Assembly (NCBI GenBank): GCA_028280195.1
Contig: JANQMH010000061.1
Coordinates: 62,001-126,000, forward strand
From: Exilibacterium sp.
GTDB lineage: Bacteria; Pseudomonadota; Gammaproteobacteria; Pseudomonadales; Cellvibrionaceae
DNA: 64,000 nucleotides
Direction: 5' to 3'
In this document: in pieces, positions 408 through 17,523 of the stretch
Layout of the letters: the number at the start of each line of letters is the position of its first letter
How positions within the stretch are numbered: position 1 is the first letter of the stretch
Notes under the pieces: generated by a model
Told to the model about the DNA's origin: nothing
Database searches by the model: none
What the model saw: only the letters and a program-made list of their open reading frames with translations
Made by a program: the position numbers and the translations under genes

Positions 408-914
408 GGCGTTACAGCATCCACTTACAGCAAATTGGCTATGGTTCCACTCAGGCTGATGCCCGTTTGCCCGGCGTCCATGCTGTTTTCGAAGTCGGCG
501 GTAATCATCGCCGGCGATTTTTAAAGTCAGAAAAGCCTCGCACTCGCCAGCGGCCTGCGATCGGGCTTACGGGCTTACTAATATAGGTACCGGTATAGAG
601 ACAGGTGCCGATGCTTCTGCCTCACCGCCGAGAGTCTAAAGGCGCCCGCTTCCTTTTTTCTGGTGTGCGCGCCATCCTTCCGAGCCTGCTCCCGAGCTGG
701 TGCTTGCGGACTAATACCGTTGCCAATCAGCATATAACACATATTTGGGCCCCCATAGCCGCATTGACGAAAAAAACAATGTCCGTCACAGATGCAGCGG
801 GATGGGTCTCAAAATTTCAGAACTTTGTCACGGCACATACCTTTTTTTATTGGAGTGGCCTATGCATCGGCGCTAGCATTGGCGGCGATTGATACATCGA
901 ACAAGAGAGCTGTC
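408..914. other. Intergenic region, divergent promoters expected
   Basis: No convincing gene is seen in this 507-base stretch. It separates the leftward exported protein from the rightward barrel genes, so it should hold promoters for both. An open frame reaches upstream of 915, but its early residues look like translated non-coding sequence and the signal peptide begins only at 915. No repeat or operator stood out. Confidence 0.5.
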
Positions 915-1574
915 ATGGTAAAAAAAGGTCTGCGCACACTGTCAGCAATGCTTCTCGGCGGCATCGGTATTGCCGGTGGCGGGGCTGTATTTGCACAGGA
1001 TAGTCGGGATCAGGACTCATCGATAACGATCATTCAACCGGATAAGACTGTAGAAAAGGCCGAGTTCGCAGCGATAGACACGGAGCGATTCGAACTGGGG
1101 GTATACACCGGCAGCCTGTCGGTGGAGGATTTTGGCAACAGCGCAGTGACCGGTCTCGCCTTTACCTTTCACATTGATCCGCGCTTCATCGCCCAGCTTG
1201 GCTACGGTCAGTCCGATGTCGGCCGCGCCGCCTTTGAAGAGGCGCTGGGCAATGACTTCCTCAGCGACAGCGATAAAGAGTTTACCTACACCCACGTCAC
1301 TGCCGGCTATCGCCTGTTTTACGGGCGCTCATTTTTTGGCGCGCGCAATAAGTTCAATACCAACCTGTACCTCACCGCCGGACTCGGCAATGTCGAATTC
1401 GCCGGGGATACGCAGACGGGGCTGGTACTGGGAGCCACCTATAAGGTCGTGCTCAACGACTGGTTAACCTGTGATATTCACCTGCGCGATCATATTTTCG
1501 AACGCGAGTTCCTGGACGATAAGAAAACCACGCAGAATGTCGAGCTGGCGGTGGGTATCAATTTTCTGTTTTAA
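915..1574 (+). CDS. Outer-membrane beta-barrel protein (first of three)
   Basis: A 219-residue exported protein. The chosen ATG at 915 has a purine-rich site (AAGAGAG) just upstream and begins a good signal peptide (MVKKGLRTLSAMLLGGIGIA) ending near AVFAQ. The mature part has alternating aromatic/glycine strands typical of small OmpW/OmpA-like barrels: FELGVYTGSLSVEDFG, GLAFTFHIDPRFIAQLGYG, YTHVTAGYRLFYGR, NLYLTAGLGNVEFAG, and a C-terminal strand ending in FLF, the usual barrel-assembly signal. Phrases in it recur in the protein at 2385-2999 (D-x-F-x-LGVY/DVGVF, SVEDFG/NIEDFS, TAGLGNVEFAG/VAGIGDTDFGG), so the two are paralogues. Role unknown; probably structural or sensory in the outer membrane. 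Confidence 0.8.
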   Translation: MVKKGLRTLSAMLLGGIGIAGGGAVFAQDSRDQDSSITIIQPDKTVEKAEFAAIDTERFELGVYTGSLSVEDFGNSAVTGLAFTFHIDPRFIAQLGYGQSDVGRAAFEEALGNDFLSDSDKEFTYTHVTAGYRLFYGRSFFGARNKFNTNLYLTAGLGNVEFAGDTQTGLVLGATYKVVLNDWLTCDIHLRDHIFEREFLDDKKTTQNVELAVGINFLF

Positions 1575-1650
1575 GCACTGAGCTATGGTTAAGTACGAGT
1601 TGGTTAAGTACGAAATGTCTAAGGTACTGAATTTTGCGGGTGGAGCTGTT

Positions 1651-2415
1651 ATGCGGTTTGCTAAATTTATCGGACTAGTGATCACCTGGGCCTGTTGTGC
1701 CAACCCGGCGCTGGCGCAGGAGGGCGAACAGCGCCTGTTGCAGCTGGAGGTGATCGACCCCTTTGTCGAACTGCACACCGGGCCGGGTCGCGGCTATCCG
1801 GTGTTCTATACCATCGAGCAGGGTGAAACCATCGAAGTGTTGACGCGGCGTACAGGCTGGTATGAACTGCGCATGCGCGACGGCCGCAGCGGCTGGGCCC
1901 GCGCTTCACAGGTGGCGCGCACGCTGCTGCCCACCGGCGAGCCGGTGGACCTGCCTTCGGTCAGCTACGGCGACTACCTGAAAAACAGCTGGCGCGCCGG
2001 CTTCAATGCCGGGCAGCTTTCCAGTGATGAGGTCGACGGCATGGACACCTTCAGCTTTACCCTGGGCTACCGGCCGCTGAGCTGGCTGGGTCTGGAGGGT
2101 GAAGTCGGCAAATTGTACGACAATGAAATCAGGGGCGATTACTACAATCTGAATGTGCTGATCGAGCCGTTTTCCCAGTGGCGGCTGTCGCCGGTGCTGA
2201 TACTTGGCGGCGGCACCATAGAGATTGAATCGCAGCCCGAGCTGACGCCGCTGGAGTTTGAAGACGAGGATTTTTACAGTTACGGCCTGGCCGCCAATTA
2301 CTATATCGGCCGGAATTTTCTGATTCGCGCCGGTTATCAAAGCTACACCATTTCAGCCGACAATGACGACGAGAGACTCGATCGATGGAATATTGGTTTC
2401 AACGCATTTTTCTAA
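1651..2415 (+). CDS. SH3-domain plus beta-barrel outer-membrane protein
   Basis: 254 residues. ATG 1651 is preceded by GGAG at 1642-1645 and starts a signal peptide ending at ALAQ. Residues about 30-90 form a bacterial SH3 domain (VELHTGPGRGYPVFYTIEQG, then LTRRTGWYELRMRDGRSGWA), which in this family tends to bind peptidoglycan or protein peptides. The remainder is a barrel-like domain with FSFTLGYRPLSWLGLEGEVG and a terminal strand ending NIGFNAFF. An SH3 module on a small barrel suggests the N-terminus lies in the periplasm next to the cell wall. It follows the first barrel by 76 bases and its 3' end overlaps the next gene by 31 bases, so the three are likely cotranscribed. A short direct repeat (GTTAAGTACGA twice) lies just upstream at about 1588-1611. 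Confidence 0.75.
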   Translation: MRFAKFIGLVITWACCANPALAQEGEQRLLQLEVIDPFVELHTGPGRGYPVFYTIEQGETIEVLTRRTGWYELRMRDGRSGWARASQVARTLLPTGEPVDLPSVSYGDYLKNSWRAGFNAGQLSSDEVDGMDTFSFTLGYRPLSWLGLEGEVGKLYDNEIRGDYYNLNVLIEPFSQWRLSPVLILGGGTIEIESQPELTPLEFEDEDFYSYGLAANYYIGRNFLIRAGYQSYTISADNDDERLDRWNIGFNAFF

Positions 2416-2999
2416 AGACCAAAAACACCGCGCTGGCGGTTTTTCTCGGGCAGGCGGTGCTGGCGGCAGCGAGCGCGACGGCGCAGAGCAGTGCCGAGGA
2501 TATCGATACCGAGTATTTCGATGTCGGCGTGTTTGCCGGGGTAATCAATATCGAGGATTTCAGCAGCGATCTGGTATACGGGATCAACGCCACTTTCAAT
2601 ACCGATGAAAACTTCTTCATGCAGTTGAACTACCTCGAAGCGGATGCCTCGCTGTCGTCTTTCGAGGAAAGTCAGGGCAAGATTTTCTCCGGCGGCGACC
2701 GCACCTTTCGCCACTTTGATTTTCTGGTGGGCTATAACCTGTTTCAGGGGGAACTGTTCTTCTCCGAAGCCAATGCGAGGTTGTCGTCGCTCTACTTGGT
2801 TGCCGGCATCGGCGATACGGATTTTGGCGGCGAGGGCAGTTTTACCTACACCATCGGTATCGGTTATCAGATAGCGCTGACGCGGGACATCATACTGCGC
2901 TTTGACTATCGGGATTATATTTATAATACGAATTTGATTGGGGACGATAAATATACACACAATACGCAGTTGTCTGGCGGTTTGAGCTATTTATTTTAG
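2385..2999 (+). CDS. Outer-membrane beta-barrel protein (third of three)
   Basis: 204 residues, beginning inside the end of the SH3-barrel gene (31-base overlap) with GAGAGACTCG ahead of ATG 2385. A basic start (MEYWFQRIFLKTKNT) leads into a hydrophobic signal segment ending near ATAQ. The mature part is paralogous to the protein at 915-1574: DVGVFAGVINIEDFS, DENFFMQLNYLEAD, FRHFDFLVGYNLFQGEL, YLVAGIGDTDFGGEG and a C-terminal strand GGLSYLF. Overlap with the upstream gene argues for translational coupling. Likely an OmpW/OmpA-like barrel of unknown role. Confidence 0.78.
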   Translation: MEYWFQRIFLKTKNTALAVFLGQAVLAAASATAQSSAEDIDTEYFDVGVFAGVINIEDFSSDLVYGINATFNTDENFFMQLNYLEADASLSSFEESQGKIFSGGDRTFRHFDFLVGYNLFQGELFFSEANARLSSLYLVAGIGDTDFGGEGSFTYTIGIGYQIALTRDIILRFDYRDYIYNTNLIGDDKYTHNTQLSGGLSYLF

Positions 3000-3012
3000 C
3001 ACTGCAGTGGCA

Positions 3013-3200
3013 GGCCCTTTGCGGGTGTTGGGGTTCGAGACTCTCGACAGCAGGGATGCTGGCGAGAAGCCTACAGGGGTGGAGCGGACAAAGGCGAAGC
3101 ACCGCTTCGCCCCGCGGAACGACCGAAATCTGTGATTTCGGGCCGGGCCCGCTTGCGGGTATTCACGGCGTGTCTCGAACCCCAACACCCGCAGAGGGCC
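3013..3200. repeat. 188-bp element bounded by 29-bp inverted repeats
   Basis: The ends 3013-3041 and 3172-3200 are inverted copies of each other with one mismatch in 29 bases (core GCGGGTGTTGGGGTTCGAGA on the left). Between them lie two smaller hairpins, one around GGCGAAGCACCGCTTCGCC and one around CCGAAATCTGTGATTTCGG. There is no coding capacity. It sits in the convergent space between the barrel genes and the acylase, so it may act as a bidirectional transcription stop. Its form suggests a dispersed palindromic element or a non-autonomous MITE; no second copy was seen in this window. Confidence 0.65.
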
Positions 3201-3226
3201 GGGTCGGCTGGCACCGCCCCCATAGA

Positions 3227-5551
3227 CTATCGCACAGCCACAGAGGGTTTTGCCTGCACAGTAAAAGAGGTAATTTGCCGAAACGTTCTTCTAACTTCCT
3301 CCAACTCCATCGGCACCCGAATATACTCCCCCCGCTGCCACAGCGGCACCTGATCAATGGAATTGGCCGAATTTATCCAGCCGTCCTGCCCGCCGAAAAG
3401 TATAAAATAATTGGCATTGATATCACTCAAATCGGAAACATGCCGCGACTGCGCACCGTAAAATGCCGCGTGTTTCTCCGCGGTGAGATCACCGGCGGTT
3501 TTCATAATGGTTTCCGAATAGCCGGGCACGGGGATATCGTACCAGCGGTAGCGCCGGCCCAGCAGTGGAATATTGCCGAGAAAGTGCTGCACCTTCAGGC
3601 GGTGGATATCGCCCCATACCCGCCCGTCTTCCAGGTGCGCGGCGGTTTGCTGCAGCGATGCCTCGAGCAGCGGTTGTAATTCAGCGGCCGGCCGCTGTCT
3701 GAGATCTTCGTTGACCAGGTGAGGCAGATGGCTGTTTCTGCTCCACAGTTCAAACATATCTCCCTCATAGAGCAGCGGCGTGAAGCTGGAGAGCCACACA
3801 TGGTAGAGATAGGCGGTTGCCGACTGCGCGTGAAAATGGCCATCCCATCTAGCGATAGCCGCCAGCGCCCGCCGCGCCCGCGGGCTCAAGTCGAGCTTGT
3901 CACTGACATCGATCAGCGTATCCCGCACCGCAATATGACTGGCGCTGTAAACGTCCTGCTGCAGTTGCTTGATATCGGCGCGCGACCACCGCTCCCTGGC
4001 GGCCAGCCTGTTGTAGATTTGTTTGACCCGGTCATCCGGGCTGAACAGCCAGCCGAGGCGCAGATCCGCCGCTGCCACCGGTTTGTTATTGGCCGAGGCA
4101 ATCACACCGGTTTGCGGATTGACCAGGTAGGGCAGGCGATCCGGTTTGTAAATATCCTGCCAGGCCCGGTCGCTCTGCTCGGGTGTTACCCATAAGTCGC
4201 TGGGAAATACCGGCTGGCGCTTCGGTATCCAGGCGGCCAGCAGGTGGCCGACATTGCCGGCGGTATCGGCAAAGATGAAGTTCTGGCCGGGAATGGAAAA
4301 ACCCTCGATGGCTTTGTACATATCGCGCCAGCCGCCGGCCTTGGCAACGCCGAGCATGGCGCTGATCTCGTCACTGGGCTGATGACCGATCCAGCGCAGG
4401 GCCACCTGCTTGCCGGCGGGAAAAGCCAGCACCTCGGCATCGGAAATAACCGGCCCGTAAGCACTCAGACGGTTGCTCGATTCAGCATCCCACCACAGGC
4501 GTCTTTTGATGGTGTGAGTTTCGGAGGTGGTGTTTTCGCGCTCATCCAGTTCGACGAAATCGCTGGCTTCCTGGCGCATATTGGTACCGCCCCAGGCCAG
4601 GTCGGCGTTGCGCCCGAAAGCAAAAATCGGCAGCCCGGCGGGCATCATACCGACGACATGATAACCCGGGGATTTCAGCCCGGCGATTAACCACAGGTTG
4701 GGAATGGCAAAACCCAGGTGCGGATCGTTGGCAATAATGGGGGCGCCGGCGGCACTGCGATGACCGGCCACGGCGAAGGAGTTGCTGCCGGCGCGGATAT
4801 AGGGCGCGAGCATCTGCGCCAGCAGCTGCAGTTGCCGGGGCCTGGCGGATGCGGCAGCGGTTTGTGCCGGTACCTGAAAACTGGTTATGGTCTCGGCCTG
4901 AGTGCGGGCGATACGCTGCCAGATCTGCGGCCATTGCGCTTTTGCCCGCTGCGGCAGCAGCGATACGATGGCCAGCCAGTTGACATCGACGCCGCCGAGC
5001 CGCCCCAGGGCGATACTGTCCTCCAGCCGCCAGGGTTCATCGTCCATATTCAGCACCCGCATCTCGTGAGGCAGCGCTTTGAGATGGGATTTATAGTGAT
5101 TGACACCGGCGACATAAGCCTCGAGCCAGGCCCTGCTCGCCGCGGGCATCTGCGCGATCACCGCCGCCGCCGCGCGGTTGACGCCCAGCGCCCGCAGGGC
5201 CGCGTCGATATCGGTGGTCAGCGGGCCGAACATTTCCGAGATTCTGCCGAGGGCCACGCGTTTGCCGATTTCCATGGAGCCGAGGCGCAGGTGGGCGTGT
5301 ATCATGCCCAGCATCAGGGCGGCATCGGTGTCGGTGCCGGCTTCCACAAACGGCACCATGTAATCGTTCCAGTAGACGGTGGCCGGTTGCTGCAGCGGCG
5401 GCGCCGGGATGGCGGCAAACTGTGCGATGCGGGCGTCGGTGGGCGCGGACTTCGGCAGCGGCTGCAGTGTTGTGCAACTGCTTGTCAGCAGGGTCAGGAG
5501 CAGTGTCAGCGCGGCGAATAACAACGGGCGCAGCGGCTTGGCGGATATCAT
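3227..5551 (-). CDS. Penicillin-amidase-family acylase, lipoprotein
   Basis: 774 residues from ATG 5551; an in-frame TTG at 5572 is possible but the signal peptide fits the ATG better. The N-terminus is a lipoprotein signal (LLTLLTSSC lipobox), so the enzyme is likely membrane-anchored in the cell envelope. The family makes one precursor that cleaves itself; the new N-terminal serine of the beta chain is the nucleophile. Here that is Ser256 in AGSNSFAVAGHR, followed by the typical NDPHLGFAIPNLW. RNRDLAWG-like and GNVGHLLAAW segments further on also fit. Family members remove acyl groups from beta-lactams, N-acyl homoserine lactones or peptides; the substrate cannot be read from the sequence. 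It stands alone, leftward, with no partner gene. Confidence 0.85.
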   Translation of the reverse strand: MISAKPLRPLLFAALTLLLTLLTSSCTTLQPLPKSAPTDARIAQFAAIPAPPLQQPATVYWNDYMVPFVEAGTDTDAALMLGMIHAHLRLGSMEIGKRVALGRISEMFGPLTTDIDAALRALGVNRAAAAVIAQMPAASRAWLEAYVAGVNHYKSHLKALPHEMRVLNMDDEPWRLEDSIALGRLGGVDVNWLAIVSLLPQRAKAQWPQIWQRIARTQAETITSFQVPAQTAAASARPRQLQLLAQMLAPYIRAGSNSFAVAGHRSAAGAPIIANDPHLGFAIPNLWLIAGLKSPGYHVVGMMPAGLPIFAFGRNADLAWGGTNMRQEASDFVELDERENTTSETHTIKRRLWWDAESSNRLSAYGPVISDAEVLAFPAGKQVALRWIGHQPSDEISAMLGVAKAGGWRDMYKAIEGFSIPGQNFIFADTAGNVGHLLAAWIPKRQPVFPSDLWVTPEQSDRAWQDIYKPDRLPYLVNPQTGVIASANNKPVAAADLRLGWLFSPDDRVKQIYNRLAARERWSRADIKQLQQDVYSASHIAVRDTLIDVSDKLDLSPRARRALAAIARWDGHFHAQSATAYLYHVWLSSFTPLLYEGDMFELWSRNSHLPHLVNEDLRQRPAAELQPLLEASLQQTAAHLEDGRVWGDIHRLKVQHFLGNIPLLGRRYRWYDIPVPGYSETIMKTAGDLTAEKHAAFYGAQSRHVSDLSDINANYFILFGGQDGWINSANSIDQVPLWQRGEYIRVPMELEEVRRTFRQITSFTVQAKPSVAVR

Positions 5552-5647
5552 CTCAGCGCGGGACCTTTGCAAGCGGGCGGTGGGCAGTCTGCCTGTATAT
5601 ACGGCATTTTATTCGAGGCAGTTTAAAGAACCGTGAAGGTTGTGCGC

Positions 5648-6175
5648 TTAAAGCCGCTCGGCGACGACAAACGACCACCAGCCCTGTGGCTGCCGGTTCA
5701 ATATTGCCTGCCAGTACCAGGCCGATACGTCGCTCCAGCTGTTGCCGGCGCCGTCGGTGATATATTCGCACACCCGCAGGCGGCGGGCGGATTTGCCGGC
5801 GGAGAAGCAGCCCATGGCAGTGCCCTCAGCGTTGCGCTGCAGTGGCAGTGGGGTGATGCTGTAGCCGATGCCCTGAAAACAATCGGCCGCCGGGTGCAGG
5901 CGGCGGCTGGGTGAATGCAACCAGCGGACGATGATTTCCCGCTCACCGTCGGAAAACCGGCCTACCTGGCCGGGGAAATCCCGCACAAAGCGCCGCTCTC
6001 GCGCTGACAGCGGCAATGGGTGCAGGCGCCGGCCTTCATACTGCTCGGGCCAGCCTGGAAATGCCGCGCTTGGCAGCTGCGGCGCGCTTGTCGACGGCAC
6101 CAGCAGCGGCGCCAGTGCGGCGAAAAGCGCAGCACAGCCCAGCGCCGGCAGCGAGCTGCTCAGCCGCGCCAGCAC
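5648..6175 (-). CDS. Small exosortase-partner protein, EpsI-like
   Basis: About 175 residues. The start is set at GTG 6175, overlapping the exosortase end by 16 bases; it is uncertain because no good ribosome site is visible. It has a short N-terminal hydrophobic segment (LPALGCAALFAALAPLLVP) and then a soluble part containing RRLHPAADCFQGIGYSI and a C-terminal AWYWQAILNRQPQGWWSFV. The His-Pro...Cys...Gly-Tyr/Trp-Ser-Ile pattern resembles the HSPEVCLPGxGW motif of EpsI proteins, which accompany or are fused to exosortases. Its place as third gene of a VIT protein-exosortase operon supports this. The exact family is not certain. Confidence 0.7.
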   Translation of the reverse strand: MLARLSSSLPALGCAALFAALAPLLVPSTSAPQLPSAAFPGWPEQYEGRRLHPLPLSARERRFVRDFPGQVGRFSDGEREIIVRWLHSPSRRLHPAADCFQGIGYSITPLPLQRNAEGTAMGCFSAGKSARRLRVCEYITDGAGNSWSDVSAWYWQAILNRQPQGWWSFVVAERL

Positions 6176-7002
6176 GGCCGCAAGCCGTTGAGCGCAACCA
6201 GCAGCGCTGCTGCCGTGGCGAGAAATACCATAACGCCGACACCCTCGTGCCACCAGTGGGGTGCGGCGGGCCACAGCCCGGTCTGCAGGTAGAACAGGCT
6301 GGCGGCGCGCAGCACATTGCCGCAGATGATGAACACTGCACAGATGCCCAGTGCCTGCAGCGTCATCCAGAAGCTGAAGGCGCGCAGATAGGCGACACTG
6401 AAAGTCAGCAGCAGGCCGGCCCAGAGCATGGTGACACCGCTGCAGGGCGCGTCGAACTGCAGCATTTGATTTTGCCAGACCAGGTAGGTGCCCTCGCGCC
6501 GCACCGCCAGGCCGTTCATATTCAACAGCGGTACGGTGAGCCCGGCGCTCAGCAGGCGCGCCGGGTAGCCGAGGTAAAACTGCAGCGACGGCACCACCGG
6601 CAGGGCGCACAGCACCATGCCCCAGTAGGCGGCCACCGGCGGGCGGCCAAACGTGGCCAGGTGCAGCGTCAGCGACAGTGACAGGCAGGCAATGGCGGCG
6701 CGCAGGATTGGCGGCAGCGGCAGCATATGGCACAGCCCGTAAAGCAGCAGCAATAGCATCAGCGGCAGCAGTGAGAAGCGAAATACCCGCCGCTGGCGCA
6801 GTGCCGTGCCGGCCGCCAGGCCGGCGATCACCGCGGCCACCGCCAGCAGGCCGACAAGTTCCTCCGCACGGCCGTAGAGCCAGCGCCAGCTGTGCCAGTA
6901 GGCGGCCAGCTGGCAGGCGCCGAGCGCCGCCAGCCAGCTCAAGTCCCGGGCGAAAGCGGCGCCGGCGCGGCGGTATTGGGTTGTTGTTTTTTCAGTATCC
7001 AC
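6160..7002 (-). CDS. Exosortase-family transmembrane cysteine transpeptidase
   Basis: A polytopic membrane protein of about 280 residues with some eight hydrophobic segments. The three exosortase hallmarks are present in order: catalytic Cys in FDAPCSGVTMLWAG (codon 6442-6444), Arg in CGNVLRAASLFY, and His in WHEGVGVMVF. The family cleaves PEP-CTERM tails of exported proteins and attaches the protein to the cell surface. The start is uncertain: GTG 7002 is used, GTG 7038 is possible; both overlap the upstream VIT gene by 64-100 bases. Gene order VIT protein, exosortase, EpsI-like suggests one dedicated substrate. The numbered exosortase subtype was not assigned. Confidence 0.85.
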   Translation of the reverse strand: MDTEKTTTQYRRAGAAFARDLSWLAALGACQLAAYWHSWRWLYGRAEELVGLLAVAAVIAGLAAGTALRQRRVFRFSLLPLMLLLLLYGLCHMLPLPPILRAAIACLSLSLTLHLATFGRPPVAAYWGMVLCALPVVPSLQFYLGYPARLLSAGLTVPLLNMNGLAVRREGTYLVWQNQMLQFDAPCSGVTMLWAGLLLTFSVAYLRAFSFWMTLQALGICAVFIICGNVLRAASLFYLQTGLWPAAPHWWHEGVGVMVFLATAAALLVALNGLRPCWRG

Positions 7003-9341
7003 AGCATTATCGCCATCACCAGCAGCGCCAGCAGCCACTGGCGCGGCTCCGGAATGGTCGGCACGGTATTGGGGTCGACCGGGTCGAGATCGTTGTCGGC
7101 GTACTGGCGGGCATTTTCCATCACCACCGCACCGCTGACCGCCGTTACCAACTGGTGGGCGGCGGCAATCTCAATGGCCCGCTGGCGATTGTCGCCGCCG
7201 GCCAGCAGCAGCTGGTGAATACGATCCCGCGCCCACAGCCGCGCAATGTGATCCGAGCCCCTGACAAGGTCCGCGGTATCGGCGACGCTGTCGCGCTGGT
7301 AGTGATAGTGCCGGCCCGCCTCGAGGGCGGTGGCAAAGTAGTTGCCGAGATCGCGCTCCACACCCTTGACCGCGCCCAGCGTTCGCGCCTGCAGCGACCA
7401 GTTGCCGCTTGCCAGCAGTTTGTTGGGGCCGGGCGCCAGGCTGTAGAGCACGGTGCGCGGCAGCCGGGTCAGGCGGGCGGCGGCCTGTTCGAAGGCGGCG
7501 GTGCTGTGGCTGAAGGCCACCGGCTGCGGCAGATGAATCCATAACAGCTCGCCGCCCGGATATTTCTCCAACTCGCGCAGGGCGCGGCCAAGCGCTGCCG
7601 CATTGTCCTGACCGCCGGCAAAGTCGAAACCGTTCAGGGCTTCGGTCAGGCGTTGCCGCTGCGCCGCCTGCCACGCCTTCACGGGAATATAAAGCGGCTG
7701 CTCGGCGGCGATAAGCAGCCCCACCGGCACGCCCGCCGGAATTTTTTCGAAAGCGGCGGTAATGGCGCCGACCGCAGCGCCGGCTCTGGCGGAGCCGTCC
7801 AGCACGATCAACAGTGCCGCGGCCGGTTCGACAGTGCGCGCGACGATTTTCTGCACCACTGGCTGGCCGCTGTGTAACTGTGCCCAGCGCGCCGCGCCGC
7901 CGCCGCTGCGCGCGACGGTGATGACTTTTCTGGGGTAGGAAAGCACACTGTCGTTGGGAGTTGCATTGATGCGGTGCACAGATGCCTGCAGGTTTTGCAG
8001 CTGTGCCGCCGGCAGGTTGGTTTGCAACGGCTGGCGACTTTCCAGCCAGATGCTGTGCTCGAGCCTGTCGCCGATAATGAAATTTCTGTCGACGATGGCC
8101 GGCAGTAACAGTTGCGCGCGATCCTCCCCCAACAGCTGCAGCGGTGCGGTGATACCGAGACGGAATTTGATGGTGCCGCCGTTGGGCGCCAGGGGAAAAG
8201 CCTGCGCCTGTATGCGGTCGGTACCACGGGTGGTCACCAGCAGCGGGTCGCGCAGCGTGCGCACTACGCTCTGGTAGGCATTGCTGACCCGGGCGCGCCC
8301 GGCAAAGGCGGCTTCGCGCTCTTCGCCGTTGACCCACAGGGTTGCGCGGGAGACTACGCCCTGCGGCGGCAGCGCCAGTTGCAGTCTGACCTCGCGCTGG
8401 CTGCGGGCATTGTTGCTGAATGCCAGCGTCCACTCCAGATAGGCGACACCCTCATCGCCGTTCAGCGATCCGTCGATGCGCGATGTGGTCAGATACAGTC
8501 CCCTGAGTCTGCCGCCGATCTCGGTGCCGCCCTGGTCGCCGTCAAACTGAAATTCATCGGCCCAGCGCCAGCGCCCGCCGCTGTACGGCGGCGGGCGATA
8601 GTTAAACGGCTCGCCGGTTACCTGGTAGAAAATTTCCCTGACCTGTGTGCTGGAGACAAGATCACTGCGATAAAACAGCAGCCTAGTGGACAGGCTCAGG
8701 GGGCCGGCGGCGCGGCCGCTGCGGTCGTAGCAGCGGCGCAGCAATAAATCCTTGTCGCCGAGCAGACGCAACAGCTGCAGGCCGCGGCGGTTTTGTTGCA
8801 GCGACTGGCTCGCCGCCCAGCGAATGCCCAGTTCGGTTGCCGCCTGGGGAATGTCCAGTACCACCAGGATTAGCAGCGCCGCGCAGACGCCCTGCCACGG
8901 CGGCAGGACGCGGCAGCCTTGCCCGGCGCACGCCGCGCGGTAGCGCCGCCACAGCATAATCGCCACTACCAGGGAAATCAGTGGCGCCAGCGGCAGCAGC
9001 CCGGCGCCGAAGTAGATAATGGCGACAGCGGCGATCGGCGTCAGCGGTAAAAACACCAGCGTATATACGGCGGCGACACCGATGGCCAGAGCGGCGAGAA
9101 AACTCACGGCGCCGCTGTATTGAAAGTCGCCGCTTCTGAGCTGTCGCCACAGCAGAAAGTTTGACAGGGGTACCGCCGCTATCATCAGGCCGTGCCAGAA
9201 CGACGGCATCGGATCGAAAAAAATTTCCGCGCACCAGCGAGTCGACAGTTCGAAGGCAATCACCCCGCCGGGGTAGACTACGCCAAGGGTCAATAAGACC
9301 CAGCCGGGAGCTTTGTTATTGTTCGCATTATTATCGCCCAT
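6939..9341 (-). CDS. VIT-domain membrane protein with PEP-CTERM-like tail
   Basis: 800 residues from ATG 9341. The first about 200 residues hold five or six membrane segments (for example WVLLTLGVVYPGGVIAFEL and VCAALLILVVLDIPQAATEL). A VIT domain follows (YLEWTLAFSNNARSQREVRL, ATLWVNGEEREAAFAGRARV), as in inter-alpha-trypsin inhibitor proteins, and then a von Willebrand A-like region (AALLIVLDGSARAG). The C-terminus has Pro-Glu-Pro at residues 764-766 (TIPEPRQWLLALLVMAIM), a hydrophobic helix, and a basic WILKKQQ end, which is a PEP-CTERM sorting signal. It overlaps the exosortase gene, so it is very probably that enzyme's substrate. Similar one-substrate membrane PEP-CTERM families are known; function unknown. 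Confidence 0.85.
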   Translation of the reverse strand: MGDNNANNNKAPGWVLLTLGVVYPGGVIAFELSTRWCAEIFFDPMPSFWHGLMIAAVPLSNFLLWRQLRSGDFQYSGAVSFLAALAIGVAAVYTLVFLPLTPIAAVAIIYFGAGLLPLAPLISLVVAIMLWRRYRAACAGQGCRVLPPWQGVCAALLILVVLDIPQAATELGIRWAASQSLQQNRRGLQLLRLLGDKDLLLRRCYDRSGRAAGPLSLSTRLLFYRSDLVSSTQVREIFYQVTGEPFNYRPPPYSGGRWRWADEFQFDGDQGGTEIGGRLRGLYLTTSRIDGSLNGDEGVAYLEWTLAFSNNARSQREVRLQLALPPQGVVSRATLWVNGEEREAAFAGRARVSNAYQSVVRTLRDPLLVTTRGTDRIQAQAFPLAPNGGTIKFRLGITAPLQLLGEDRAQLLLPAIVDRNFIIGDRLEHSIWLESRQPLQTNLPAAQLQNLQASVHRINATPNDSVLSYPRKVITVARSGGGAARWAQLHSGQPVVQKIVARTVEPAAALLIVLDGSARAGAAVGAITAAFEKIPAGVPVGLLIAAEQPLYIPVKAWQAAQRQRLTEALNGFDFAGGQDNAAALGRALRELEKYPGGELLWIHLPQPVAFSHSTAAFEQAAARLTRLPRTVLYSLAPGPNKLLASGNWSLQARTLGAVKGVERDLGNYFATALEAGRHYHYQRDSVADTADLVRGSDHIARLWARDRIHQLLLAGGDNRQRAIEIAAAHQLVTAVSGAVVMENARQYADNDLDPVDPNTVPTIPEPRQWLLALLVMAIMLWILKKQQPNTAAPAPLSPGT

Positions 9342-9470
9342 TCTACTTATCGTCCCCGGTGATGATCCGCAGGCAGTCAGATGTCGGCACGGTCGATCGA
9401 GCGCTGATAGTAATACCTGCAATCCGCGCGCGTCCAGCGCTGCCACAATTGATCACAAACTGCCCGGGGA

Positions 9471-9512
9471 ATGTCACAAAGGTGATGTCACAAAGGGGAT
9501 GCCACAAAACCC
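9471..9512. repeat. Three 14-bp direct repeats upstream of abgT
   Basis: Three successive 14-base units begin at 9471, 9485 and 9499: ATGTCACAAAGGTG, ATGTCACAAAGGGG and ATGCCACAAAACCC. Two further CACAA motifs lie just before (9443 and 9454). Repeats in phase about 145 bases before the transporter start could be activator or repressor sites; this is inference only. Confidence 0.45.
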
Positions 9513-9656
9513 CCGCCGTTCACATTTGTGCTGCGGACTCACGCTATATTTTGCTGTGCTGGCGATATTTGCCCGATGAGGTTTTTTCTACCTGCTGCCT
9601 GTGGCACTATCCCTCTGCATCTGCAATAGCAAATCATAATAACGGGAAACTCTGAT

Positions 9657-11192
<1,536 letters not shown>

Positions 11193-11241
11193 GCGGCGGC
11201 TGAGGCTGAAAATCGGTGGTTAAACAGTCCGCTACACTGAG

Positions 11242-14200
11242 CTAAGGAAAGATATACATAGCTCGGTCCGTACTGATCAATAGCCCGCGCGAGCCCTCGG
11301 CTCCCAGCGGGCCTGCCCGCAAGGCGTTTTTTGATAGTTTGCCTAACAGATCAGGGGATCGCCAGTTTCTTGTCCCGGTGGACAGGTTGTAAGAGGCGAT
11401 ATGGCTGTTGTTGTTACTGAAGGGGGCTCTTTCGACGACATAGATTTCCGTGGCAGTTCTAATCATGACGTCGTCTGCCCAATTCAAGGTGGTAAAACTG
11501 TTAATGGTAGAAAACTCACTGTCGATAAACTCTACCGCTTTGGTGGGGCGCCGACTATCGGTAGCAACCAACTCCTGATTGCCGTCTTGGTCGATATCGT
11601 AACTGGTATGAAACTGCAGCCCTCTGTCGGAGCTTGCCAGCAGAACGTAGGTATCATTATTGCGATCGTAGATTCTACTGCTGTTATGGCTGGAAATGGC
11701 GATTTCCAGATCTACGTCCTCGTCCAGGTTAGCTATTTCGAAATCGATGACCTGATAGTTCAAATCAGAACTCCATAGCAGTCTCTGTTCTGCGATATTA
11801 TGGATCTCCAGGCGGCCGTTATTGATGAAGGCTGCTTCGCTGATACCGTCGCCGTCGGTGTCCACCGCCTTTATATTCCTGCAGGCATTGCTGAAAGAAT
11901 TTGGGCCGGAACTCCATTCGGTAGCGCTGGTATCGGGATCGATGACGGCGCAGTATCGGCTCAGGCCGACTAACCAGCGTTGCTCATTGTTGTCCGTATC
12001 GATCAGGACCATTCCGGAGCCCGAACCGGTATTGCCGTCCAGTTGTGGCGATATTGTCAGCTCTCCTGATGCGTTGATCCGGACTACACGTGTGCCGCTA
12101 TCGTTAAAATTGGCGCTGCTCCATTGCGTGGCGAGAAATACCGCGGTAAAAGCCTCCGTGCCCCCTGTCTGTATGCCCCCCGCCCAGAAGCCGGATCTGA
12201 ACCCGCTCTGTTCAGTATCGATCCATTGCGGCAGGGTTGCGGCGGCGGGCTCAATGACGCCAATGGAGCCGCGTGCTTGTCGATAGTTGCTTTGATAGAC
12301 GATTTCAATATTGCCGTCACCGTCAACGTCGCCGGCACTGAGATGGTGGCTGGTTTCGGTGCTGTCATCGGCTGTCCATACCGGCGTTAGTGCATTGTTG
12401 GTCCACTGATAGGCTTTCAGGCCTTCGCCATAACAGGGCCCGATAAGGACTTCATATGCGGCATCGTCGAGCACATCGGCAGTTTGCAGGCTGCAGGTTG
12501 TAGCGGAGATCTGGTGCAGGCGCTCTTTACTTGCGGCACTGAATACCGACAGCTTGTCGGAGGTGGCGCCGATAATCTCATCGATGCCATCGTTGTCCAG
12601 GTCGCCCACTGCGAGATAATCGCCAAACTCAGTCGAGCGCAGCCATTCATTGGTCAGGGTAACGCCGTCGTAGACACTGCCGGCCGATGCAATGATCTCC
12701 AGAGCCGGATCGCTATCGACATTGCCCACCGCCAAGCGCCGGCCGTAGCGGGTGCCGACGACTATCTGGTAGTCGGCCAGCTCAGTCGCGCGGGCGAGAT
12801 AAAGTGTCTGGTTGCTCGAGTGGTGGCTCTGTGTGAGCAGAATGGCGACCTGTAAATTGCCGTCGTTGTTGAAATCGGCAGCCTCGATATCGAGTATATG
12901 GAAGTCGTACTCGTGCTTGCCAATCAGCTGGCCACTGCGGCCATTGATAATGGCAACGGTTTTGCCGCCGGCTACCAGGAGATCATCGGTGTTGTCGCCG
13001 TCGACGTCGGCCAAAGAGATACTGCGGATAGTGCCGTTGTCTATCAGGTTGTACGGATACGCCCAATCCTGATGAAATCCGCCGTTATCATATTGCAGTG
13101 AGAACACCAGGTTGGAGCCGTCGGAGGCATAGATTTTCTGCACGCCGTTGATATCGGGGCTGGCTGTAGCCAGTAGTTTCAGATGGCTGCCTTGAGTGGT
13201 TACAGCTGTGCTGGTTCTGACGATTGGCGCGTTTTTTTCAGTGCCGATAGCCTCTATGAAGCCCGACACAGGAGCCTGGTCTGTATCGGCAACGGAAAAA
13301 CTGAACTCGAATTGCTGGCTGGAAAAGGCCAGATCGGGCACCTGCCAGGATACCTTGCCCGCTGCATCGACGCTGGCTCCGGTAGGCCCTTGCAGTACGA
13401 TGCCCGTGGGAATGCTATCGTTGTCGGGATCTTCCCAGACGATGTCGAATTCCACCAGTTCGCCCTCAGCGATGAGCTTTGGCATATTGATCAGGCTCAA
13501 GCGGCCCTCAGCATTGCCGATAACGGTGGTGTCCTCCTGGCTGACCTCGTTGCTGCCGTCACTGGCTGTCACTACCACTTTGACGGTATCGCCTTTGCTG
13601 AAATACTCTGCCGCCAGTTCCCCTTTCTCCGCCCCTTCGAGCACCAGCGTGTCATTCACATACCATTGTATGTTATTGGTCACTTCATCTTCCAGATCGG
13701 AAAACCACAAATACGGCAACTCCAGTATGTCCAGCGTGTTGGGCGCAGTGGGCTGAATATCGACGTTGAATATGCTCGGCGGTTGATTCTGCAGGGTAAC
13801 CAGTATTTCTTTTGAGCTGATTGACGAGCCGTCTGAAGCGGAAATGGTAAAGCGATAATCCCCAACCGTATCAGCGTGAAAGATCAGCACATAGGACTGA
13901 TAGGGCGGGGAGGGATGGTAGTTATCGTGAGGCCGGATATATGCCTCTTCGATAAACGTTGCGCCCTCAGGTGCCGATACCAGACTGGTGGAGAACGCCA
14001 TTTCAGCTCCCTCTATGTCCATCGCAAAAAAGAAGACATAGGACTGGCGTTTATACGACGACTCAATTGCCTCCTCGGGCGTGTTGAGAATGGGCGCTGA
14101 GTCGATATCATAACAGTGGACGACGATATCGCGCACATCCATACCAGTGGCGGTGCCTTCGCCATTACTGATATCACACTGGCTGTCATAGGGCGGCTCG

Positions 14201-14460
14201 GCAACCTCGAGCGCAAATGTTTCCCCCTGCGCGACAAGAAACAACTGGTGAACGCCGTCGCTTTCGATGCGTACTTGCTGCTCGCCATTGCGCAGCAGCA
14301 CACCGCCCTCGGGCACACTGTCGAATGAGGCGATCAACATTACCTTGTCGGCCTGTGCCGGCACTTGTACAACCTTTTCTTTATCGTCGCCGCAGGCGCT
14401 TATGATCAATACTGTGGCCAGACCCAGTGATAAGAATTTAGAGCGTGAACAGGTCGACAT
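11242..14460 (-). CDS. FG-GAP/VCBS-repeat surface lipoprotein
   Basis: 1072 residues from ATG 14460, which has GGAGG upstream. Lipoprotein signal with lipobox LIISAC. Residues roughly 130-400 contain Ig/cadherin-like folds (YRFTISASDGSS, VKVVVTASDGSNEVSQ, FSVADTDQAPVSG). From about 420 there are FG-GAP/VCBS-type repeats with Asp-rich calcium loops (LADVDGDNTDDLLVAGG, AVGDLDNDGIDEIIGA, SAGDVDGDGNIEIVYQ, AVDTDGDGISEAAF), which build a beta-propeller. Such proteins are exported and often bind ligands or other cells. It is a single gene with no linked secretion system; function unknown. Confidence 0.8.
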   Translation of the reverse strand: MSTCSRSKFLSLGLATVLIISACGDDKEKVVQVPAQADKVMLIASFDSVPEGGVLLRNGEQQVRIESDGVHQLFLVAQGETFALEVAEPPYDSQCDISNGEGTATGMDVRDIVVHCYDIDSAPILNTPEEAIESSYKRQSYVFFFAMDIEGAEMAFSTSLVSAPEGATFIEEAYIRPHDNYHPSPPYQSYVLIFHADTVGDYRFTISASDGSSISSKEILVTLQNQPPSIFNVDIQPTAPNTLDILELPYLWFSDLEDEVTNNIQWYVNDTLVLEGAEKGELAAEYFSKGDTVKVVVTASDGSNEVSQEDTTVIGNAEGRLSLINMPKLIAEGELVEFDIVWEDPDNDSIPTGIVLQGPTGASVDAAGKVSWQVPDLAFSSQQFEFSFSVADTDQAPVSGFIEAIGTEKNAPIVRTSTAVTTQGSHLKLLATASPDINGVQKIYASDGSNLVFSLQYDNGGFHQDWAYPYNLIDNGTIRSISLADVDGDNTDDLLVAGGKTVAIINGRSGQLIGKHEYDFHILDIEAADFNNDGNLQVAILLTQSHHSSNQTLYLARATELADYQIVVGTRYGRRLAVGNVDSDPALEIIASAGSVYDGVTLTNEWLRSTEFGDYLAVGDLDNDGIDEIIGATSDKLSVFSAASKERLHQISATTCSLQTADVLDDAAYEVLIGPCYGEGLKAYQWTNNALTPVWTADDSTETSHHLSAGDVDGDGNIEIVYQSNYRQARGSIGVIEPAAATLPQWIDTEQSGFRSGFWAGGIQTGGTEAFTAVFLATQWSSANFNDSGTRVVRINASGELTISPQLDGNTGSGSGMVLIDTDNNEQRWLVGLSRYCAVIDPDTSATEWSSGPNSFSNACRNIKAVDTDGDGISEAAFINNGRLEIHNIAEQRLLWSSDLNYQVIDFEIANLDEDVDLEIAISSHNSSRIYDRNNDTYVLLASSDRGLQFHTSYDIDQDGNQELVATDSRRPTKAVEFIDSEFSTINSFTTLNWADDVMIRTATEIYVVERAPFSNNNSHIASYNLSTGTRNWRSPDLLGKLSKNALRAGPLGAEGSRGLLISTDRAMYIFP

Positions 14461-14783
14461 TGAAACCTCCACTGTTAAAAAATAATCCGTGTGATGGCCA
14501 CGACAGTGTCGCCGTCACCGGTGAACGTCAAAATGGTGGGCCAGTATATGTCGTCTAAATTTCTATCGCAATTGCGAATAAGTTTATTACAGAATTATAA
14601 AGATTGGACTAAAGCAATCTGCATTCTTCGCTGCAGTATCATGGGGGAAATCTCGTTATCACTCGTGTAGTATTAAAAAATCCTATCAGAGTTTAGTAGT
14701 TTCATGCGTGCACTCTATGAATATATCGGCACTGATGTGAGTACGCAGTAACTGATATCCATTACTGTGTTTGCGCTAAAAAC
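14461..14783. other. Intergenic, AT-rich promoter region
   Basis: This 323-base gap separates two leftward transcription units and is clearly more AT-rich than its surroundings (for example 14560-14720). It should carry the lipoprotein promoter. No gene, RNA or clear operator is seen. Confidence 0.4.
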
Positions 14784-15203
14784 TCAGAACGGCTTGACAA
14801 TCACCAGCACCGCAATCACCACCAGCATCGCAATCTTGGCCGGCAGTAAATAGCTGATCCAACCGGGCGGGGTAAAGTCGTTATTGCTTGCGATACGGCG
14901 CAGCATCCCGGAATACATACCGTGAACGCCGGAGACGATAACCACAAACAGCAGCTTGGCGTGCATCCAGCCCGACGCCATCCAGCTGCCGGAACTCATC
15001 AGCCACAGACCCAGCGCCCAGGTCAGTATCATCGCCGGTACACTCAGCCGGCGAAACAGGGTGCGGCTTGCCGGCGCGGCCGCTGTGCGAACTTCAATGC
15101 TCTGCCGCCCGAGCCAGGCGATAACGGCGGGCGCCGCCAGCATGGCGGCCATCCACACAAAAATTGCGCTGATATGCAGTGCTTTTATCCACAAGTATGT
15201 CAC
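14784..15203 (-). CDS. CopD/HemJ-like four-helix membrane protein
   Basis: 139 residues with four membrane helices. MTYLWIKALHISAIFVWMAAM and the later SGSWMASGWMHAKLLFVVIVSGVHG match the His-bearing helices of the HemJ/CopD group. HemJ is a haem-dependent protoporphyrinogen IX oxidase and CopD a copper importer; the length fits HemJ, but assigning haem synthesis would need more evidence. It begins five bases after the end of the DUF3817 gene, so the two form an operon. Confidence 0.7.
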   Translation of the reverse strand: MTYLWIKALHISAIFVWMAAMLAAPAVIAWLGRQSIEVRTAAAPASRTLFRRLSVPAMILTWALGLWLMSSGSWMASGWMHAKLLFVVIVSGVHGMYSGMLRRIASNNDFTPPGWISYLLPAKIAMLVVIAVLVIVKPF

Positions 15204-15208
15204 GGGTA

Positions 15209-15535
15209 TTAGCTCTCCTGAGACTGAAGGAACTCAGTGTGTTTGCGGGCCAGGTATCGGTCGTTGATAAAAGTGCCGAAGGGCAGGACGGCGGCAATCA
15301 GCACGCGGGCGATTTCCCCGGCGCGCCAGCCGCCACCCGATACGGCGTTTGTCGCCATTATCAGGTAAGCGATAAAAGTAAAGCCGTGTATCGGCCCCAT
15401 GATTGTCACCGCAGTCGGGTAGTCGCCGAGGCGTTTCAGCGGAACGGCTACAAACAGCAGTAAAATCAGCGTTGTGCCTTCGACAAATCCCGCCAGGCGC
15501 AGCTGTCCGATAGGGTCTTTTAACAAGCGGGTCAT
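15209..15535 (-). CDS. DUF3817 membrane protein
   Basis: 108 residues from ATG 15535. The frame is open further upstream, but the helices fit this start and GAAGACCC precedes it. Motifs RLAGFVEGTTLILLLFVAVPLK, MGPIHGFTFIAYLI and a C-terminal LPFGTFINDRYLA are typical of DUF3817 proteins, three-helix membrane proteins of unknown function often next to respiratory or transport genes. First gene of a pair with the CopD/HemJ-like gene. Confidence 0.8.
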   Translation of the reverse strand: MTRLLKDPIGQLRLAGFVEGTTLILLLFVAVPLKRLGDYPTAVTIMGPIHGFTFIAYLIMATNAVSGGGWRAGEIARVLIAAVLPFGTFINDRYLARKHTEFLQSQES

Positions 15536-15696
15536 TGGGTCTTCGGTATTGATACTCGGGTTTGCAGGTAGCGCCCAGCCTGCGCGCAGCCACTGTGGGG
15601 GCCGGCAGCCACAATACAATAAGCCGACTGCCGGCGCAATGCCCGCTGCCGGCCGGCCAGGTGAAAAAGCGGCCGCGGGTATTGACTTTTCTTACG

Positions 15697-17523
15697 TTAA
15701 CGGATTTGGTCGGGTTTGGTTTTCCCTGAGGTGGATTCTTTTTGCCCGGGCGGTTTGTATTCCCCGGCAGCGGTGTCCTGTGCCTGCGGATCATTACCAG
15801 TGCATTCCAGAGTTTCTTTCAGCGCTTCAATGGCCTGATGCTGCGTAAGGAATACCTGCCCGTTTAGGCGCTGTAAAAACCGCGTCCTGGCCAGGCAGTC
15901 CATCACCGGGCCTTTGACTTCGCTGAGGTTGAAGCTCAATTGTAATTCGGTCAGGCGCTGGTTGACGGCTTCCAGCGTTTCCAGCGCGCTCAGATCGATC
16001 TCGTTGACCGCCGAGCACATCAGCACCACATGCCTGGCGTCGCGGTTTTCCGCCAGCAGGGCGTAGATGGTATCTTCCAGATAGGCCGCATTGGCGAAGT
16101 AAAGGCTTTCGTCGACCCGCAGCGAAATGATTTCCGGGTGAGTAATGACTTTGTGGCGCAGCACATTGCGAAAATGCTCGGTGCCGCCGACATTGCCGAC
16201 GATGGCGATATGCGGGCGCGAGGTTTTATACAGGTGCAGGGCGATGGACGCCAGTACGCCGCTGAGCACACCGCGCTCGACGCCCAGCAGCAGGGTTACC
16301 GCAATGGTGATCACCAGGCCGATAAAGTCCGAGGTCGAGTAGCGCCAGGCCTGCCGCAGTATGGAAAAGTCCACCAGCGACAGTACCGCGACGATAATGG
16401 TGGCCGCCAGTGTGGCCTTGGGCAGGTAGTACAGCAGCGGCGTTAAAAACAGCGCCGCCAGCGCGATGCCCAGCGCCGTGAAAATACTGGCCGCCTGGGT
16501 TTCGGCGCCGGCATCGAAGTTGACAATGGAGCGGGAGAAACCCCCGGTAACCGGAAAGCCGGCACATACCGCCGAGCCGACATTGGCGCCGCCGAGACCG
16601 ATCAGTTCCTGGTCGGGGTCGATGCGCTGGCGGCGCTTGGCTGCCAGGGTTTTGCCGACCGACACCGATTCCACGTAGCCGATGATCGAGATCAGCAGCG
16701 CCGAGCCCGCCAGCGACGACCACAGGTCAACGGAAAAAGCAGGCAGTTGCAGTGACGGCAGGCCGCGGGGTATTTCCCCCACCAGGGCCACACCGCGGTC
16801 GCCCAAGTCCAGCAGATAAGCCGCCAGGGTGGTGACGAGGACCACGAAAACCGGTGCCGTTCGGGCCAGGGTGGCGGCGCTGTAGGGGCTCAGCCCGGCG
16901 CCTATCAAGATCGCTTTCAGCCCGCTGCGCGCCCAGAACAGAAAGGCCAGCGCGCCGGCGCCGATCGCCAGCGTCGGCGGATTGATCTGCTGCAGATGCC
17001 GAAACAGCGACAACCCCAGGTCGACGATGTTTTCGCCGTGGGCCTCGATACCGAGGATATGTTTGAGCTGGCTGAGGGCGATGATGAGGCCGGAGGCGGT
17101 GATAAAGCCGGCGACCACCGGATGGGAGAGAAAGTTGGCGAAGAAACCGAAGCGCAGCAGGCCCATGACGATCAGGATCAGGCCCGACAGCAGCGCCAGA
17201 GCGATGGCGGCGCCGACGGCATCGGTGTAACCGGCTTCGACGGCCTTGCCGACCGCCGCGGCCGTCATCAGCGAGGCCACCGCCACCGGGCCCACCGACA
17301 GGGTGCGGCTGGTGCCGAGCAGGGCATAGATCAGCAGCGGCAGGATGCTGGCGTACAGCCCCATCTGCGCCGGCATGCCGGCGAGCATGGCATAGGCCAG
17401 TGACTGCGGAATCAGCATCACGGTAACGATCAGCGCGGCGATCAGATCGCTGCCCAGCAGTTGCCGGTTGTAGCCCCGGGCCCAGGCCAGTACGGGCAGA
17501 TAGCGGTGCAGGGTAGCAAGCAT
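15697..17523 (-). CDS. SulP-family anion permease with STAS domain
   Basis: 608 residues. The transmembrane part begins with YLPVLAWARGYNRQLLGSDLIAAL and contains the SulP signature around PQSLAYAMLAGMPAQMGLYAS; FPVTGGFSRSIVNFDAGAETQ and GVERGVLSGVLASI are also typical. A cytoplasmic STAS domain occupies about residues 440-555 (HVVLMCSAVNEIDLSALETL). Its ATG shares a base with the stop of the upstream quinone oxidoreductase gene, so it is translationally coupled to the sulfide operon. In that setting it may export sulfite or sulfate formed from sulfide, or import sulfate; direction is inference. Confidence 0.88.
   Translation of the reverse strand: MLATLHRYLPVLAWARGYNRQLLGSDLIAALIVTVMLIPQSLAYAMLAGMPAQMGLYASILPLLIYALLGTSRTLSVGPVAVASLMTAAAVGKAVEAGYTDAVGAAIALALLSGLILIVMGLLRFGFFANFLSHPVVAGFITASGLIIALSQLKHILGIEAHGENIVDLGLSLFRHLQQINPPTLAIGAGALAFLFWARSGLKAILIGAGLSPYSAATLARTAPVFVVLVTTLAAYLLDLGDRGVALVGEIPRGLPSLQLPAFSVDLWSSLAGSALLISIIGYVESVSVGKTLAAKRRQRIDPDQELIGLGGANVGSAVCAGFPVTGGFSRSIVNFDAGAETQAASIFTALGIALAALFLTPLLYYLPKATLAATIIVAVLSLVDFSILRQAWRYSTSDFIGLVITIAVTLLLGVERGVLSGVLASIALHLYKTSRPHIAIVGNVGGTEHFRNVLRHKVITHPEIISLRVDESLYFANAAYLEDTIYALLAENRDARHVVLMCSAVNEIDLSALETLEAVNQRLTELQLSFNLSEVKGPVMDCLARTRFLQRLNGQVFLTQHQAIEALKETLECTGNDPQAQDTAAGEYKPPGQKESTSGKTKPDQIR

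Follow-up and report, generated by a model that had tools for sequence, protein, structure and literature searches.

A candidate private sorting line of VIT protein, exosortase and EpsI-like partner in Exilibacterium sp.

A stretch of 64,000 nucleotides from Exilibacterium sp. (assembly GCA_028280195.1, contig JANQMH010000061.1, positions 62,001 to 126,000; the whole stretch is hereafter the window) contains three genes on the minus strand, between 9341 and 5648, that overlap one another and encode a VIT domain protein with a PEP-type tail, an exosortase and an EpsI-like protein. From sequence comparisons across many phyla we propose, at a probability of about three in four, that this trio is a private sorting line in which the exosortase would serve the tail of the adjacent VIT protein and no other protein. 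This reading rests on the separation of the VIT tail from the general PEP-CTERM tails of the same genome, on relatives with one such enzyme and one such tail, and on an exosortase lineage in which a VIT protein is the constant neighbour.

The trio and its sorting tail

The VIT protein gene (6939..9341, minus strand) encodes 800 amino acids comprising five predicted N-terminal helices, a VIT and von Willebrand factor A (vWA) body like that of the inter-alpha-inhibitor heavy chains (ITIH), and a C-terminal sorting tail (6975..7067, minus strand). This tail, TVPTIPEPRQW followed by a helix and Lys-Lys, places Pro-Glu-Pro at residues 764–766 ahead of a hydrophobic stretch (a helix at 768–785 in the predicted structure) and has the tripartite build of a PEP-CTERM tail, with PEP motif, hydrophobic helix and basic end. 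The longest frame of the exosortase gene (6160..7002, minus strand) opens at 7038, while the preferred start, GTG 7002, gives 280 amino acids, a length close to the 279 and 284 common in its nearest relatives (among the 120 listed of 402 protein matches, which went into a profile) and one that implies an overlap with the VIT gene of about 60 bases. The frame of the EpsI-like gene (5648..6175, minus strand) is open from 6733, its first part being without any match and its homologous part running from near GTG 6175 to 5648; this start and that of the exosortase are chosen assignments.

The exosortase exceeds the superfamily cut-offs of PF09721 (68.3 against 25.7 bits) and TIGR04178 (42.2 against 23), and the VIT protein that of the Pfam VIT domain (31.6 against 26.5 bits), which answers the check by profile models suggested in an earlier, sequence-only note on this DNA. 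Cys199, Arg244 and His264, the triad, are invariant in the 20 aligned exosortases, window included, and so are the remaining fixed residues of the Cys-x-Gly, Asn-x-x-Arg and His-x-x-x-Gly motifs (G201, N241 and G268). EpsH and EpsI, the triad, the exosortase motifs and PEP-CTERM are described in PMC1569441. The three overlapping genes, the tail with its Lys-Lys end and the triad had all been read from the sequence in the earlier note, and that reading is borne out. None of the named NCBIfam exosortase subfamilies accepts the enzyme at its cut-off, the best being XrtQ (NF012182) with 124 against 270 bits.

Two further exosortases complete the total of three in this genome, and by score these are an XrtA (contig 29; 300 against 208 bits) and an XrtD (contig 83; 592 against 400 bits), both of lineages distant from the VIT-linked enzyme. 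The general PEP-CTERM model (TIGR02595) has eight matches elsewhere in the genome; the VIT tail is not among them, nor is it matched by this model at E ≤ 1e-1 (0.1). Conversely the tail profile A4 finds the VIT tail as its sole match in the genome and none of the eight general matches, the score of the VIT tail being high by construction because A4 was built from linked VIT tails. These profile searches have shown two tail types in one genome, each reached by its own profile only. The 20 linked tails share invariant P3, P6, E7 and P8, with V2 and W11 in at least 90%, and a literal PEP can be read in three of the eight general tails, each with a glycine at +11 from the PEP (3/3). The earlier description of the protein as bearing a PEP-CTERM tail therefore holds for the tripartite build and not for the general model. 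Other PEP-CTERM substrates in the genome, which the earlier note had named as counting against a dedicated system, do exist to the letter in the eight matches, but those tails are found by a separate profile.

One enzyme for one substrate

Relatives of the trio came from a single scan that gave 48 loci in many phyla, to which the window and a copy from the same genus were added. In 20 of these 50 loci an exosortase adjoins the VIT gene, 22 have downstream sequence but no exosortase of the lineage, and eight end within less than 400 bases. Of the 20 trio-bearing genomes, 12 have no PF09721 match besides the linked exosortase, and in those 12 A4 finds the VIT tail and nothing else; the general PEP-CTERM model (E ≤ 0.01) has no match in eight of them and one in the other four, which may or may not be the VIT tail itself. 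Over all 20 genomes the VIT tail is the sole A4 match in 15, and the other five contain 11 extra matches at 16–23 bits (maximum 23.1) against 49–63 bits (minimum 49.3) for the VIT tails.

In a tree of the 20 linked and 17 other exosortases (three of the 20 others fetched, L067, L073 and L079, were left out by a motif filter) the linked enzymes fall in one group with support of 100/100, together with two outsiders. Both outsiders come from genomes in which the contig carrying the VIT gene is broken off, and on both of their own contigs the exosortase is closely preceded by a VIT tail and followed by an EpsI-like gene or domain. A strict clade of the first 20 linked exosortases was rejected (approximately unbiased test, p 0.001), because the two further members belong inside. 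A profile of the lineage, run over the 50 genomes, matched the 22 VIT-linked exosortases strongly (302–410 bits) and beyond these only one sequence, weakly (61.5 bits, genome G131).

A search that was not seeded on VIT, using this exosortase profile (E ≤ 1e-15), covered 398 Pseudomonadota genomes and found carriers in eight, the Exilibacterium genome included. Four of the eight have the trio with a polytopic VIT protein, and in the other four the enzyme is XrtQ by score and adjoins a PEP-tailed VIT/vWA protein. In the enlarged tree the 29 members form one group (100/100) against an outgroup of six other, general enzymes, with XrtQ inside (the branch holding XrtQ has support of 98/99); many further PF09721 matches stayed outside the trees. 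All 29 lineage members examined adjoin a VIT protein, and nine of them, namely the two outsiders and seven from the phylum sample, were not found through VIT. The gene order is permuted in one genome (G210; L104:4924-8810), where it runs exosortase, EpsI-like, VIT.

The exosortase may instead have further substrates that escape detection because their tails differ too much from that of VIT, in which case the pairing would not truly be one-to-one. Short tails are indeed hard to detect, the general model missing the VIT tail itself; but in the 12 genomes in which no other exosortase was found A4 finds nothing beyond VIT and the general model none (eight) or one (four), and the VIT linkage of all 29 members includes two predicted exceptions that were checked. 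We consider such hidden substrates improbable. The one-substrate system that the earlier note had supposed is well supported by the relatives; in this genome the eight other PEP-CTERM matches are reached by a different profile, and the two other exosortases belong to distant lineages.

The 19 linked loci with enough sequence (locus L016 ends too soon) all have an EpsI-like gene after the exosortase, five of them as a fusion, and across the lineage all 28 members with enough sequence have an EpsI-like gene or domain; the profile used was built from the window and five fused copies. The window protein, presumably periplasmic, has one predicted N-terminal helix and a His-x4-Cys motif (His103/Cys108) that is invariant in 19 of 19. 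Judged by eye, the XrtD of this genome has a comparable His-x4-Cys (HSPRSC, L002) in its EpsI part. The protein matches neither of the EpsI models TIGR02914 and PF11984, in contrast to the general exosortases of this genome (TIGR02914, 140.9 and 75.7 against a cut-off of 42.8; PF11984, 209.2 for one), and its sole NCBIfam match is to the C-terminal part of XrtT (E 5.7e-9). Its predicted structure (5651–6202; mean predicted local distance difference test score, pLDDT, 92.8) has no match in the PDB at E ≤ 0.001. The best PDB match is SciW (E 0.032), in entries with SciW bound to an Rhs transmembrane domain, and is a lead only.

The trio seems to move as a three-gene unit. Over the 20 kb compared, it alone is common to the window and the same-genus copy, and a clear copy of the VIT protein is present in at least two of 97 relatives (the window and the same-genus genome; a third match of 24.6 bits is uncounted), a lower bound since the single window VIT protein as query reaches close relatives only.

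VIT proteins without an adjacent lineage enzyme

Several observations weigh against a private line. VIT was the route by which 20 of the 29 lineage members were reached; the two other exosortases of the Exilibacterium genome make cross-processing possible; and tail searches miss substrates with unlike tails. The relatives are mostly metagenome-assembled genomes (MAGs), in which the only exosortase may be the only one recovered. The 22 loci with downstream sequence and no adjacent exosortase of the lineage are mostly from Verrucomicrobia, one locus (L042) having an exosortase of general type some 1.8 kb off, encoded on the opposite strand, and an Acidobacteriota MAG encodes a PEP-tailed VIT protein (L030:5661-8120) with no adjacent exosortase and no exosortase match genome-wide. 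Lastly, the tail difference described below falls largely within one clade and so counts as few events. In a Poribacterial MAG without an exosortase the VIT frame (L020:5959-8121) stops before the conserved C-terminal part and the tail.

The Verrucomicrobial VIT proteins form a clade of 22 rows (Shimodaira–Hasegawa-like approximate likelihood ratio test, 92) in a tree from which L062 was excluded for its fragmented frames, 39 VIT frames being used in the VIT alignment. Where the sequence allows a look, no exosortase of the VIT-linked lineage adjoins them, and their genomes contain between one and six exosortase matches and between 0 and 23 PEP-CTERM matches. This arrangement could be taken to mean that XrtA (contig 29) and XrtD (contig 83) also process the VIT protein of the window, making the adjacent enzyme redundant. 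However, a glycine at +11 marks 17 of 19 Verrucomicrobial tails and none of the 20 adjacent-linked tails, and it is the residue found in all three readable general tails of the Exilibacterium genome; processing of the window VIT protein by XrtA and XrtD is on this evidence very unlikely. The glycine is found in 17 of 21 tails over all loci without a seen adjacent exosortase (three of which end within 400 bases), in none of five further linked tails and in none of four XrtQ substrates, the counts leaving aside eight VIT frames that lack a PEP close to the C-terminus (L020, L049, L051, L053, L055, L057, L059 and L060). By this residue the Verrucomicrobial VIT proteins mostly carry a general tail, and the comparison suggests that the tail follows the enzyme serving it.

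In 25 loci (L021, L022 and 23 others) the gene immediately before VIT encodes a PadR-type regulator, mainly in Verrucomicrobia and also in Kiritimatiellota, Sumerlaeota and Planctomycetota; the Pfam PadR model is over cut-off in both regulators scanned, and a HAAS domain appears at the N-terminus of four of nine full-length VIT proteins scanned, each time below the curated cut-off. As HAAS-PadR dyads are proposed in PMC11237479 as envelope-stress signalling pairs, the VIT protein might be mainly an envelope-stress sensor or effector, with the exosortase step a maturation for signalling. The dyad nevertheless follows the four phyla named and its HAAS scores are all sub-threshold, while in the window no member of the PadR cluster is present among the frames of 1–24 kb and no HAAS domain in the VIT protein. 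We consider this signalling role unlikely.

Known systems and possible function

VIT targets of dedicated sorting enzymes are known in kind, and by model scores the window system is a multi-phylum variant, without a name, of what the NCBIfam models XrtN, XrtK and XrtQ describe. XrtQ (NF012182) shares with it the exosortase clade, an EpsI-like gene or domain (4/4 loci) and an adjoining PEP-tailed VIT protein (4/4), but XrtQ proper scores 335–397 bits in the four loci, against 124 for the window enzyme at a cut-off of 270. The XrtQ substrates are similar to the marine sortase target (TIGR03788, 407–424 bits in 4/4, cut-off 551.65) and keep an intact DxSxS metal-ion-dependent adhesion site (MIDAS) in 4/4, whereas in the window the substrate is predicted to be polytopic and its MIDAS is degenerate. 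At these loci (L100–L103) a marine-sortase-target-like VIT/vWA protein bears a PEP tail, one substrate family being paired with two unrelated sorting enzymes. The XrtN system (TIGR04476/TIGR04477) likewise joins an exosortase to a VIT target, and the target model TIGR04477 is matched by all 39 aligned VIT proteins (E ≤ 0.001); the window proteins nonetheless fall short of its cut-offs (VIT 99.9 against 250, exosortase 37.7 against 200). XrtK (TIGR04287) serves MSEP-CTERM (TIGR04286). The latter model is matched by 38 of the 39 VIT proteins (E ≤ 0.001) and the XrtK model by one of the 20 linked exosortases; the window VIT protein scores 38.9 against 150 and its tail has PEP, not MSEP. In the sortase/LPXTG VIT cassette (TIGR03784/TIGR03788), as with the GlyGly-CTERM VIT proteins, a VIT/vWA protein is again the dedicated target of an adjacent sorting enzyme, but the cassette has an unrelated enzyme and another tail motif; TIGR03788 is matched by 10 of the 39 VIT proteins. 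According to PMC3237569, VIT/vWA proteins bear LPXTG, GlyGly-CTERM or PEP-CTERM tails, and dedicated one-target sorting systems tend to be neighbours. Searches of the open-licence literature for an exosortase paired with a VIT domain, for exosortase Q and for MSEP-CTERM found none, which does not show absence from print, and those for inter-alpha-trypsin with exosortase found nothing relevant.

The AlphaFold2 model of the VIT protein (pLDDT 89.1; predicted template modelling score 0.85) has five long N-terminal helices, then a VIT/hybrid/vWA body, which is predicted to lie outside the membrane, and a C-terminal tail helix. Its closest solved structure is inter-alpha-inhibitor heavy chain 1 (6fpy; 13% identity), and the predicted fold reproduces the VIT/hybrid/vWA arrangement of these heavy chains. 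Heavy chain 1 differs in being a secreted animal protein with a working MIDAS and no exosortase; the DxSxS of the MIDAS is absent from the vWA domain of the window protein, where the site reads as degenerate, and Ser or Thr occupies its fifth position in 13 of the 46 family rows with a residue there. A signal peptide at the N-terminus is the usual export signal of PEP-CTERM substrates (PMC1569441, PMC12188702), in place of which the predicted structure of the window protein shows the five helices. Glu31, Pro44, Pro46 and Pro58 of this N-terminal part are each present in at least 90% of the 39 proteins, and as these residues are conserved alike in enzyme-linked and unlinked proteins the part probably matters for the function of the VIT protein itself.

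In the private line as we propose it, the exosortase would recognize the VPTIPEP tail of the adjacent VIT protein and cut at or near the PEP by means of its Cys/Arg/His triad, the new C-terminus being handed to water or to some envelope molecule, with the EpsI-like protein assisting on the periplasmic side. If the predicted topology is right, cleavage would free one end of the VIT protein only: pinned at both ends before processing, it would afterwards keep its N-terminal hold, and removal of the tail would not release it because the five N-terminal helices stay. As worded, the earlier suggestion of a system that places a protein at the surface is doubtful, since with these predicted helices the protein would remain in the inner membrane after tail cleavage. 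The C-terminus of heavy chain 1 is the site of covalent glycosaminoglycan attachment (PMC7170535), and this offers a parallel for the VIT tail by analogy, not evidence. In a more far-reaching and improbable version the window protein would be a bacterial counterpart of the heavy chains: its private exosortase, partnered in a second step by the EpsI-like protein, would couple the new C-terminus to a polymer or lipid of the envelope while the N-terminal helices hold the protein in the inner membrane, so that it bridges the envelope covalently. On this view the whole lineage (window group and XrtQ) would have had VIT bodies as its ancestral cargo, with tails swapped to LPXTG or general PEP elsewhere.

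No exopolysaccharide family is matched by the nine flanking proteins scanned (792 to 17523), in agreement with the earlier note, and in the linked proteobacterial loci no gene apart from the trio recurs close by. Among neighbour-gene clusters considered as a functional clue, those of 20 and nine loci proved to be antisense frames, and one of seven loci groups response-regulator-like genes whose distance varies (11 kb off in the window). Elsewhere in the window, two of three successive genes at 792–2999 give outer-membrane beta-barrel matches, one of the two having an SH3 domain as well, and the remaining gene has no Pfam match; 11242–14472 encodes a 1076-residue protein with FG-GAP-like repeats.

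To our knowledge, what exosortases attach their substrates to is still an open question, and one that general exosortase systems with their many substrates make hard to test. A portable three-gene unit of one likely substrate, its enzyme and a partner, spread over many phyla and occurring also in genomes with no second exosortase detected, would provide a minimal test bed. Moreover, the protein that bears the exosortase signal is here predicted to be polytopic, so that cutting off the tail would not set it free.

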